Assembly (NCBI RefSeq): GCF_000682715.1
Contig: NZ_AWFH01000006.1
Location: 1-64,000 of the forward strand
DNA length: 64,000 bases
Reading direction: 5' to 3'
Source of the DNA: Hyphomonas atlantica corrig.
GTDB lineage: Bacteria; Pseudomonadota; Alphaproteobacteria; Caulobacterales; Hyphomonadaceae
This document shows, in pieces, positions 36,870 through 39,333 of this stretch (the first letter of the stretch is position 1; the number at the start of each line of letters is the position of its first letter). The notes below the pieces were generated by a model. That model was not told where the DNA came from. It did not search any database and was given only the letters and a program-made list of their open reading frames with translations. A program made the translations under genes and the position numbers.

Positions 36870-37242
36870 TTTATGTCTCCGTACTTTGCCGGAGGGTTGC
36901 CGGATGGGGAAATCACCCCTAAAAAAGGCATACCGCTTCGGCGGTTAATGGACCGAGGGGACACGGTACTTGCCTTCGAAATCGAGTAGCCGTGCCCTCT
37001 CGGGACGCACAATCTGTGTGCATCCCACACAGTAGACTAAGCGCTGGTCAGCGAGTCCAGTATCACGCGTGTGAATTCCACGGCCATTCACCCAAAAATT
37101 AGGTGTTTCGAGGGTATATTCTCTGTTTGTTCACAACCACTGCGCTAATAACTCATCAAACTCTACTTCAAGTATGCTTGTTTGAACGCTAGATCGAATC
37201 GCTGCTGTCAACGACGATTCGAATTATCCGTGCCCCTACTAG
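36870..37242. other. AT-rich stretch without a recognised gene
   Basis: Base composition is lower in GC than neighbouring DNA. It contains a palindrome AGACAT-TTT-ATGTCT (36864-36878) spanning the start of the Cys-rich gene, and a 38-codon plus-strand frame (36873-36989) without a ribosome binding site. I see no tRNA, integrase or other recognisable function. Probably remnants of acquired DNA. Confidence 0.4.
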
Positions 37243-37350
37243 CCGCAGCCCCCTGCGGAGGCAGGGGGCTATCTCGGAACCGTTCCGCACGGTGCATGAG
37301 GCAAAAGCCGGGGATGGATACCTGCCTGCGCAGGTATCTTCGGAGGTGGG
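37243..37350 (+). repeat. left inverted flank of the GIY-YIG unit
   Basis: About 108 bases with two parts. Around 37247-37270 there is a perfect 10-bp hairpin (AGCCCCCTGC-GGAG-GCAGGGGGCT). At 37313-37343 there is a 31-base core containing ACCTGCCTGCGCAGGTA. Both parts recur in mirrored order, on the opposite strand, at 38178-38283, with 70 versus 69 bases between matching landmarks. The core matches at 30 of 31 positions and the hairpin part at about 30 of 35. Confidence 0.75.
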
Positions 37351-37420
37351 AAGGTGCCAGTCTTTTCCTGTTTGCCTGAGGCATGTAGGGTTCTGATATC
37401 GCCGTTTCTGGGGGAATATC

Positions 37421-37708
37421 GTGGCGTTCTATGCGTACATCATGGCCAACCGCAAGAATGGTGCGCTGTATGCAGGCCATACGGACAATATCGCGGCCCG
37501 TGTGTTGGCCCACCGGGAGGGACGCGGCGCAGCCCATACAAGCAAATACAACATTAAGCGCCTTGTCTGGATGGAAGCGCACGACACGCGAGAGGCGGCG
37601 AAGACGCGAGAATACCAGATCAAGAAATGGAAACGCGACTGGAAGATCCGCCTGATTGAAGAGACCAACCCCGACTGGAAGGATTTGTGGTTCAGTTTGA
37701 ATCAATAG
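37421..37708 (+). CDS. single-domain GIY-YIG endonuclease
   Basis: A 95-residue stand-alone nuclease-fold protein of the YhbQ/UPF0213 type. The motif reads AYIMANRKNGALYAGHT (Tyr residues and the LYAGHT turn in place of GIY/YIG). Catalytic-type Arg is in NIAARVLAHREG, and Glu in AAKTREYQIKKWKR, followed by KIRLIEETNPDWKDLW. The start is GTG after GGGGGAA. The gene is flanked by inverted copies of a palindromic repeat about 80 bases upstream and 470 downstream, which may mean it processes or moves them (inference). Natural substrates of this subfamily are poorly known. Confidence 0.88.
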   Translation: MAFYAYIMANRKNGALYAGHTDNIAARVLAHREGRGAAHTSKYNIKRLVWMEAHDTREAAKTREYQIKKWKRDWKIRLIEETNPDWKDLWFSLNQ

Positions 37709-37728
37709 TCTTTGTCCTGTACAAATAT

Positions 37729-37763
37729 CCGGACTGGCTCTCACCATCCGGGTATCCCGTATT
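37729..37763 (+). repeat. dispersed 35-bp repeat, copy B
   Basis: Matches the minus strand of 11-45 at 33 of 35 positions. It begins 20 bases after the GIY-YIG stop. The segment CCGGA...TCCGG can pair. Presence at both the window edge and here shows it is a dispersed element and not part of the nuclease gene. Confidence 0.72.
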
Positions 37764-37787
37764 CCCGGCCCCTGATGGAACCGACAG

Positions 37788-37858
37788 CGCGGCGGGCGCC
37801 GTGGCGCTCCGCCTTGGTTTTGGAATGGCTACGGAATGGAGCGTTACCGCCCGCCGCG
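37788..37858. other. large stem-loop, candidate structured RNA or repeat
   Basis: Outer arms CGCGGCGGGCG (37788-37798) and CGCCCGCCGCG (37848-37858) pair perfectly. A small internal loop and a second 6-bp helix (CGCTCC/GGAGCG) follow, with a 27-base apical loop. It lies in a 0.8-kb gene-free island (37709-38550). The rest of that island to about 38130 shows no convincing frame, and its many short frames on both strands look spurious. Confidence 0.5.
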
Positions 37859-38177
37859 CCGGACAGGGTCTTCAGCGGACACCTCGAAAGGGCCCAAGAT
37901 CCCGGGTCTTCGTTACCGGCGCCGCGCGAACATTGCCTCCGTGCTTTTCACACGAAAGGCTGATCCGGGGAGGCCTTACTCCCGTGCGTCCGGACGAGGC
38001 GGATTCCCAACCGAGCTTCCTCGGCTCACCCTGGCCTGACCTGCCTAGGGCCCGGCGGGACCGTCTATCTCCCGCAAGGCCCATCCCGTCCCTGACCCCA
38101 CAACCAGAACGGCACCTGATCCGGCTCCCGTGAGGGCAGGAGGGAAGTATGGGGTGGGAAGCTATCAGACGGATTCC

Positions 38178-38283
38178 CCCGTTCCGAAGATGCCTGCGCA
38201 GGCAGGTATCCATCTCCTGCCATCGCCTGAAGCGCTTGAGGATACAGCCAGAGATGGGCCCCTGCCTGCGCAGGGGCCTGCGG
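38178..38283 (-). repeat. right inverted flank of the GIY-YIG unit
   Basis: Minus-strand counterpart of 37243-37350. The 31-base core lies at 38184-38214 (one mismatch to the left core), and the hairpin-like GCCCCTG-CCTGCG-CAGGGGC lies at 38258-38277. Together with the left copy it encloses about 1.04 kb holding the GIY-YIG gene, the 35-bp repeat and the large stem-loop. Confidence 0.73.
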
Positions 38284-38322
38284 AGGAGAGGGGAAATCCT
38301 AATTCTCCCACAAAGTCCGCCT

Positions 38323-38395
38323 CCCCGGCGCATGCCGGGGTCTCCCGCCGTTAGGGCGCGGAGCCAGCCGCAGGAGACTCCGGCATGCGCCGGAG
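38323..38395. repeat. long imperfect inverted repeat with GCATGC cores
   Basis: Arms 38323-38345 and 38373-38395 are complementary at 21 of 23 positions; each arm is itself a hairpin (CCCCGGC-GCAT-GCCGGGG and CTCCGGC-ATGC-GCCGGAG). Intergenic, upstream of nothing and downstream of the GGDEF gene on the minus strand. No T-run, so more likely a REP/BIME-type repeat than a terminator. Confidence 0.7.
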
Positions 38396-38550
38396 ATACG
38401 GGACGGAGGAGACTGAATCCCCTGAACCGTGCAGGACGCATTTGGCGGCTCTGTTCCGTGATGGGCCCCCAGACCGCTGGCGCGGTCGGGGGTGACGCCA
38501 GGAGGAGAGGGCGGGACTCTATCCCCACACGGTAGAATGGAGGGCGCGGC

Positions 38551-39333
38551 TTAACCGGCGCGGCGGGTGAGGAGAGAGGCGCCGCTGTCGATGGCGATAT
38601 AGGGGCGCGAGAAGCCGAGGGCGCGGTTCTTGCCGGCGCGTTTGGCGGCATAGAGCGCCTTGTCTGCGCGGGACAGCAGGGTGGAGATTTCAGACGGGCG
38701 CGCGCCTTCGCAATAGCCAAGACTGATCGTGACCGGAAGATCCCCTTCCCGCGTGTAGACCGGAGACGCGCCGACGACTTCCACAAGGCGGCGAAAGGCG
38801 CGAACGGCCTCGACCTCTGAAGAGAAGATGCCCGCAATCGCGAATTCTTCTCCGCCCAGCCGCGCGATCAGGCACTCATCTGGTGCGTGCGTGTTCAGCG
38901 TTTCGGCAAGGTCCCTCAACACGATGTCACCCACATCATGGCCCCAGCGATCATTCACGGCCTTGAAATCGTCCACATCGGCCAGCGCACAGAAGAAACG
39001 GCGACCGGACCCGCTGGCACGGCTGCGCATCTCCCGGACGCCATCGAAGAAGGCGCGGCGATTGGGCAGGCCGGTCAGCTCGTCCAGATAGGCGAGGCGA
39101 TGATTCTCACGCGCCAGGTCTCGCGAGCGCATGTCGGCGCGCAGGATGAAGAAGCTGCAGATCGGTGCGATCAGCAGGGGCAGGAGGATGGCACGCAGGA
39201 GCGTGTCAGACCGGGTGGTGACAGGGTCCATCGCCAGCCAGGCGATGACCGGCACGACCGCCAGCACAATTGCGCCTAGCGTAATCAAGACGCCAAAGCC
39301 GATGGCGCGGCGGACTTCCTTTGAAATCGTCAT
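38551..39333 (-). CDS. membrane-bound diguanylate cyclase (GGDEF), paralog 1
   Basis: Makes c-di-GMP from GTP. The 260-residue protein has two N-terminal spans (about 12-32 and 45-64), then a GGDEF domain: DELTGLPNRRAFFDGV, FFCALADVDDFKAVNDRWGH (metal Asp), ARLGGEEFAIAG (active GGEEF) and TISLGYCEGARP. The RxxD inhibitory site five residues before GGEEF is absent. GGAGGGTCG precedes the start. It is a close relative of the next gene upstream; the pair looks like a tandem duplication. Confidence 0.92.
   Translation of the reverse strand: MTISKEVRRAIGFGVLITLGAIVLAVVPVIAWLAMDPVTTRSDTLLRAILLPLLIAPICSFFILRADMRSRDLARENHRLAYLDELTGLPNRRAFFDGVREMRSRASGSGRRFFCALADVDDFKAVNDRWGHDVGDIVLRDLAETLNTHAPDECLIARLGGEEFAIAGIFSSEVEAVRAFRRLVEVVGASPVYTREGDLPVTISLGYCEGARPSEISTLLSRADKALYAAKRAGKNRALGFSRPYIAIDSGASLLTRRAG

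Follow-up and report, generated by a model that had tools for sequence, protein, structure and literature searches.

The described systems closest to the locus reported here include the RAYTs (TnpA-REP) with their GTAG REPs, or REPtrons, in which, as here, a nuclease gene lies between two inverse REPs and many REPs and dimers are found elsewhere in the genome (PMC2817692). The RAYT enzyme recognizes both the palindrome and its tag (PMC8266576). Unlike RAYTs and REPtrons, the locus described here has a GIY-YIG enzyme instead of an HUH tyrosine enzyme, and tags that are CGTC-like or other instead of GTAG. The CGTC REPs, reported from carriers that include Azospirillum lipoferum, Sinorhizobium meliloti, and the Neisseriae, have a stem of 8-9 bp starting with AT, a loop of 4-5, and a CCA tail (Di Nocera et al., 2013; PMC3733652). 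In the portion of that paper available to us, no dedicated transposase is assigned to these repeats, associations with transposase genes are described as few and fortuitous, and GIY is not mentioned. Free-standing GIY-YIG homing endonucleases resemble our enzyme in their catalytic domain and in a selfish-looking distribution; unlike them, the enzyme found here has no extra DNA-binding domain that we could find, and its gene is intergenic, REP-flanked, and present in many neighborhoods. UPF0213 and single-domain GIY-YIG proteins (1zg2, 1ywl) agree with it in domain and size, and no repeat partner is mentioned for them in the partly accessible literature that was searched. Among the papers that the same search listed, none links GIY-YIG to REPs; its coverage was without bioRxiv and with few subscription papers, often in part only, so a printed link elsewhere is not excluded.

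The window, i.e., the whole stretch of DNA analyzed, comprises 64,000 nucleotides of Hyphomonas atlantica (contig NZ_AWFH01000006.1). Within it, a REP dimer, a nuclease gene, a non-coding tail, and an inverted REP dimer follow one another between hisA and two GGDEF-type genes (neighbors named by eye; Table 1). An initial annotation of this DNA had described a single-domain GIY-YIG gene between imperfect inverted flanks, and both parts of that description held. The ORF matched PF01541 with 55.4 bits (cut-off, 22.6), which meets the criterion for the GIY-YIG superfamily, and BLAST of the organism's own genome aligned the left and right flanks in inverse orientation with 80% identity (E 1.4e-15). 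At 102 and 101 bp, the flanks also meet the insertion-sequence criterion of terminal inverted repeats. The annotation had further reported mirrored landmarks and a 31-base core, which on recomputation was again identical at 30 of 31 positions (37314-37344 vs. the reverse complement of 38183-38213). The mirrored order arises because each flank is dimeric, built as palindrome, 46 bp, palindrome, with palindrome starts ~70 bp apart. Folded as single-stranded DNA, the left flank formed mainly separate hairpins and the right flank one long stem; for neither did any of 200 shuffles fold as well (z -4.2, left; -3.9, right).

Table 1. Features of the nuclease unit and its surroundings (window coordinates).
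Feature	Position	Strand	Description
Left REP dimer, REPIN-like, 102 bp	37243-37344	+	Two palindromes, tails facing each other, tags outwards; inverse of right dimer
Outer left REP hairpin	37247-37270		GCCCCCTGCG-type stem; DNA fold
Inner left REP hairpin	37317-37338		GATACCTGC / CTGC / GCAGGTATC; CCA tail on outer side, CCGAAG tag gene-facing; type S
Single-domain GIY-YIG nuclease gene	37421-37708	+	GTG start, 95 aa; active-site residues as expected
Non-coding tail, ~460 bp	37715-38175	+	Repeat dispersed separately in the genus; here lies between gene and right dimer; no Rfam family at gathering score
Large stem-loop within tail	37787-37859		12-bp perfect arms (37787-37798 / 37848-37859), plus further pairing
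Right REP dimer, 101 bp	38183-38283	-	Inverted copy of left dimer
Inner right REP hairpin	38189-38210		Tag gene-facing, CCA tail outwards
Outer right REP hairpin	38257-38278		Read by eye; pattern match 38253-38274
Adjacent imperfect palindrome	38317-38401		Copied elsewhere; also downstream of hisA in congener G084, where the nuclease unit is absent

The inner hairpins, ATACCTGC (or ATGCCTGC), a loop of 4, and GCAGGTAT followed by CCA, have the geometry of CGTC REPs given above; the stems of the outer hairpins do not start with AT. The tags are CCGAAG and CCGCAG in place of CGTC, and a GTAG tag is likewise absent. Since the inner repeats share the geometry but not the tag, the window repeats are a relative rather than a plain member of the CGTC REPs, and since both enzyme and tag differ, the unit is not a RAYT or REPtron.

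The 95-aa protein matched PF01541 only, as one domain, and contains neither a separate DNA-recognition domain nor an HUH tyrosine transposase. Among 127 aligned class A proteins (classes defined below), residues Y6, Y17, G19, R27, H31, and E64 are each conserved in 124 or more. Its AlphaFold model (pLDDT 95) had as nearest solved folds the UPF0213 proteins (1zg2, 1ywl) and, weakly, Slx1 (E ~0.04), which processes branched DNA according to the title of 6seh. This likeness, seen in a predicted structure, fits a cruciform or hairpin substrate but does not prove it.

The dispersed repeat and large stem-loop that had been noted inside the unit are real and lie in the non-coding tail, of which partial copies occur elsewhere in the organism's own genome and in the genus. 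Tail fragments stand at several contig ends of the own genome (C3:1, C56:9, C6:9, and C56:232406). In five congeners, a fragment in reverse orientation also precedes one gene, a place where the own genome has 37 bp only. An RNA family was considered for the unit and rejected: an Rfam scan of 36900-38600 gave only matches far below gathering scores (miRNA hairpins, BjrC68), which were taken as chance palindromes. An NCBIfam search gave no family.

The own genome is a 3.6-Mb draft in 63 contigs, with repeats at contig ends; its closest named matches are from Hyphomonas, Henriciella, and other Hyphomonadaceae. In it the window REP type is rare, with 2 sites by a strict pattern and 8 matches by a relaxed one, 4 of these inside the window unit; the strict pattern found up to 18 sites in a relative (G044). 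Two further single-domain GIY-YIG genes are present, one (contig C4) with CGTC-tagged palindromes on both sides and one (C7) where only the 3' side has a palindrome. A 625-aa frame with a GIY-YIG domain is presumably uvrC, by size and place, and a partial match (G000:C7:81601-81726) falls inside a 320-aa frame near a contig end and is not a single-domain gene. The congener G084 carries the full dimer-nuclease-tail-dimer arrangement with 79% identity over 1,162 bp, among different gene neighbors and with the left dimer duplicated. By coordinates, this unit is ~36 kb from hisA. In the hisA-GGDEF gap of G084 itself the window unit is absent, and only a related palindrome and other repeats are found; since the gap differs in other ways too, it does not serve as a clean empty site of the window unit. 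In the own genome, the site corresponding to the one occupied in G084 is interrupted by a contig end.

We surveyed 101 Hyphomonadaceae genomes with profile A1 (22 proteins), which gave 150 matches in 64 genomes, with up to six copies per genome. These are 150 distinct genes, 129 of class A (C-terminal NPDWKDLW) and 21 of class B. For each gene, the 400 bp on its upstream side were compared with the 400 bp on its downstream side, and the best local match in either inverted or direct orientation was scored, with a threshold of at least 18. Of 128 testable class A genes, 72 had a common flank repeat (inverted in 52, direct in 54, in some cases both), as did 18 of 21 class B genes (17 inverted, 8 direct); for control ORFs from 400 kb of genome G013, the figure was 2 of 332, none inverted. 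The excess is strong (Fisher p 7e-46 and 3e-25), with the reservation that related genomes are not independent and that the controls come from one genome. No common flank repeat reached the threshold within 400 bp on each side for the remaining 56 class A genes. Among these are the window gene and its G084 homologue, which miss the test because the right dimer starts ~474 bp beyond the gene; with 660 bp, the window scores 43. It might be supposed that such repeats are ordinary intergenic REPs, which are common and intergenic by nature, and that small mobile genes simply happen to sit in REP-rich spacers. Control ORFs with comparable room do not bear this out: the pattern was found in 0 of 78 with spacers of at least 60 bp and in 0 of 38 with at least 100 bp on both sides, all from one genome.

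The association extends over several phyla. Inverted flank repeats, the only kind scored in this comparison, were present in 20 of 43 loci (42 from a scan of named genomes, plus the window) vs. 4 of 183 control ORFs taken from these loci. We fetched the 30 top matches in 198 genomes belonging to the phylum of a Bacteroidota MAG (G117); 23 of the 29 testable loci had flank repeats (8 inverted), mostly direct instead of inverted, vs. 3 of 84 controls (1 inverted). Flank repeats were also seen in 8 of 10 plasmid-collection loci picked from 34 records, and none were found within 400 bp in those of Rhizobium tumorigenes and Photobacterium. CGTC-tagged palindromes stand directly around the nuclease gene in records of A. 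lipoferum, S. meliloti, and Neisseria (N. gonorrhoeae). A hairpin finder based on a CCA/TGG rule, which misses long mismatched stems, oriented 77 sides, and 61 of these had the tag facing the gene. The nearest REP is turned the opposite way in S. meliloti, Rhizobium CIAT894, and Shinella. On plasmid p1 of Planktothrix agardhii, a nuclease gene has TGTCATTCTGAG-type repeats on its flanks and, as neighbors, an MmeI-type enzyme on one side and DISARM drmA on the other.

In RAYT systems, enzyme and repeat types co-evolve. In our set, tag classes S, G, and K were defined post hoc, after inspection of the flanks, and compared with a protein tree covering 148 of the 150 genes; the main comparison used the 44 class A genes with a clear tag (20 S, 15 G, 9 K). 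On this tree, tag type changed only twice, the minimum for three states, while 500 shuffles required at least 14 changes. Since shared ancestry of whole loci could imitate such co-variation, loci with similar outer flanks were collapsed, leaving 12 neighborhoods for S (from 20 members), 9 for G, and 6 for K; these numbers are upper bounds, as loci with short flanks escape joining. With these 27 representatives, 2 changes were still required (1,000 shuffles, at least 6), and the window gene falls in the S clade. A broad CGTC regex gave noisy labels (label C), as it also matched 50 of 336 control ORFs, and these labels were left out of the main comparison; adding them gave 5 changes for 91 class A rows (shuffles at least 35), and adding B gave 8 for 108 rows (shuffles at least 50). 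The strict type finder labeled 55 of 129 class A genes vs. 8 of 336 controls, with 30 inward and 19 outward sides for type S and 13 and 22 for type G. Of 20 genomes with an S-clade nuclease, 18 contained the S palindrome, ATACCTGC-N4-GCAGGTAT with one mismatch allowed, vs. 23 of the 81 genomes lacking such a nuclease (p 5.6e-7). Among the 75 S sites listed, from 13 genomes, 12 were within 300 bp of a GIY-YIG gene where uniform placement predicts 0.07; together with the flank-repeat excess, this is the clustering near GIY-YIG genes that the initial annotation had proposed to look for. The control, proximity, and tree counts therefore already contradict the caveat, also raised there, that ordinary REPs lie on both sides by chance, and we regard such a coincidence as scarcely credible.

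Class B genes have a quite different palindrome from the class A types, TTCGAC...GCTCAGGA, which occurs within 300 bp of 15 of 21 class B genes vs. 8 of 336 controls. As read from the listing, the stop codon lies inside the 3' REP motif in 11 of the 21 (in one of them, L280, followed by just the first half of that motif). Copies of the class B repeat are more numerous in genomes with the gene (17/20 genomes; median 15 vs. 3; p 0.0014), and the repeat is also present, in up to 47 copies, in 48 of 81 Hyphomonadaceae genomes without it. In the Bacteroidota sample, at least 5 repeat copies were found in 29 of 114 genomes with a nuclease vs. 3 of 84 without (p 2e-5). Genome G135 holds 578 copies of GTCATTGCGAGG, yet no class A match at E 1e-10. 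A dense array of GTCATTGCGAGG, with spacing often ~95-150 bp, was observed in a Ginsengibacter genome (G121 C32:168891-172653). Persistence of the repeats thus does not need the nuclease. RAYT systems, too, leave orphan REPs, and therefore nuclease-free repeats are not fatal to a partnership between enzyme and repeat. The initial annotation had held that finding flanks and nuclease apart would refute it, and that has come about in part: solo dimers and repeat-rich genomes without the gene do exist.

Comparisons between relatives revealed sites with and without the unit. In A. lipoferum 4B, the 617-bp gap between sufB and sufC contains a REP dimer, the nuclease, and a REP dimer; the unit is absent from this gap in A. 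ramasamyi (91 bp), A. oryzae (87 bp), and Azospirillum sp. B510 (129 bp, with another palindrome in the gap). By span and coverage, it is likewise absent in all 11 other Azospirillum rows among the matches listed (23 records matched). A class B unit of ~500 bp near 1,142.5 kb in Hyphomonadaceae genome G013 is missing in G003 and G050, where its neighbors are ~53 bp apart, with no REP visible between them (by eye); the corresponding site has a CGTC REP dimer in G047 and part of the class B repeat in G044. A type G unit bounded by two REPs has one orientation in G013 and G050 and the opposite one in G003, G044, and G047, at one locus in close relatives (L151 9406-9863 vs. L176, L177, L178, and L204). 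Ordinary recombination between inverted REPs would also explain this inversion. Just upstream of the intact nuclease gene on S. meliloti pSymB, the 3' end of another such gene survives between REPs (L338 1216-1290), which may represent either decay or tandem copying of the unit. Sites without a unit thus exist in relatives, at sufB-sufC and for the class B unit; a clean one for the window unit itself was not obtained. These comparisons do not tell gain from loss, and no clear target-site duplication was seen by eye at the unit-less sites compared (diverged spacers, no systematic search).

These sites bear on whether the nuclease might be cargo, or a homing-type endonuclease settling in REPs that a RAYT or IS enzyme has spread, with the repeats as landing sites and not substrates for spread. 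GIY-YIG domains are classic homing nucleases (PMC1564403), and gene-less repeats do occur where relatives have a unit, as in a solo window-type dimer in G013 and REP remnants in Sinorhizobium sp. M103, both identified by eye. At two unit-less sites (G003/G050; A. ramasamyi/A. oryzae), however, no REP is visible by eye, and therefore the gene and its two REPs seem to have been gained, or lost, as one piece. Repeat type, moreover, co-varies with nuclease clade, and the accessible text of Di Nocera et al. (2013; PMC3733652) reports no dedicated transposase for CGTC REPs. We consider settlement of this kind unlikely. The nuclease could instead serve the host as a structure-selective enzyme that trims or resolves REP cruciforms, the linkage being due to co-selection with nothing mobilized; its modeled resemblance to a UPF0213 protein and, weakly, to Slx1 branched-DNA nucleases would suit such a role. 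A mobile element better fits the patchy presence in 64 of 101 genomes with up to six copies each, the presence/absence and inversion between relatives, and the presence of one clade in new neighborhoods (12 clusters for 20 type S members), and a purely host-serving function appears to us quite improbable.

We therefore regard it as probable that the locus is a compact mobile REP-gene-REP unit whose nuclease is the dedicated partner of the flanking REPs and drives their spread, a catalysis that is inferred in the absence of activity data. The initial annotation had drawn the parallel with a RAYT-like REP element and partner nuclease as an inference; enrichment, co-variation of clade and type, and unit-less sites now support it, the action of the nuclease on the repeats remaining inferential. 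That the unit works like a REPtron is strongly supported by its anatomy, co-variation, and mobility. The association in several phyla, the match of type and clade, and the presence/absence and inversion between relatives are observations; a cut by the nuclease, the form of its substrate, and the joining step are inferences. As a possible mechanism, the nuclease would recognize the hairpin plus the tag of its own repeat type, probably in an extruded cruciform or in single-stranded DNA at the replication fork, and would nick or cut the REP. New intergenic sites might afterwards be reached by the REP alone or by the complete REP-gene-REP unit, copied or moved by host replication and repair, and solo REPs and REP dimers would be the non-autonomous offspring. 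We know of no strand-joining activity of a lone GIY-YIG domain.

More broadly, and with some reservation, we lean towards a class of mobile elements driven by a lone GIY-YIG nuclease, in which each clade's enzyme recognizes its own tagged palindrome and which has spread CGTC-type and related REPs across phyla. Such a class would supply CGTC REPs with the counterpart of RAYT that they have so far lacked, and would represent a REP system that evolved independently. If so, a GIY-YIG partner would open the origin of CGTC REPs to direct tests in Alphaproteobacteria, Bacteroidota, and others. Such a partner would also provide a function for many small proteins annotated only as "GIY-YIG nuclease family protein", and would point to two or more origins of REP systems, with unrelated nucleases.
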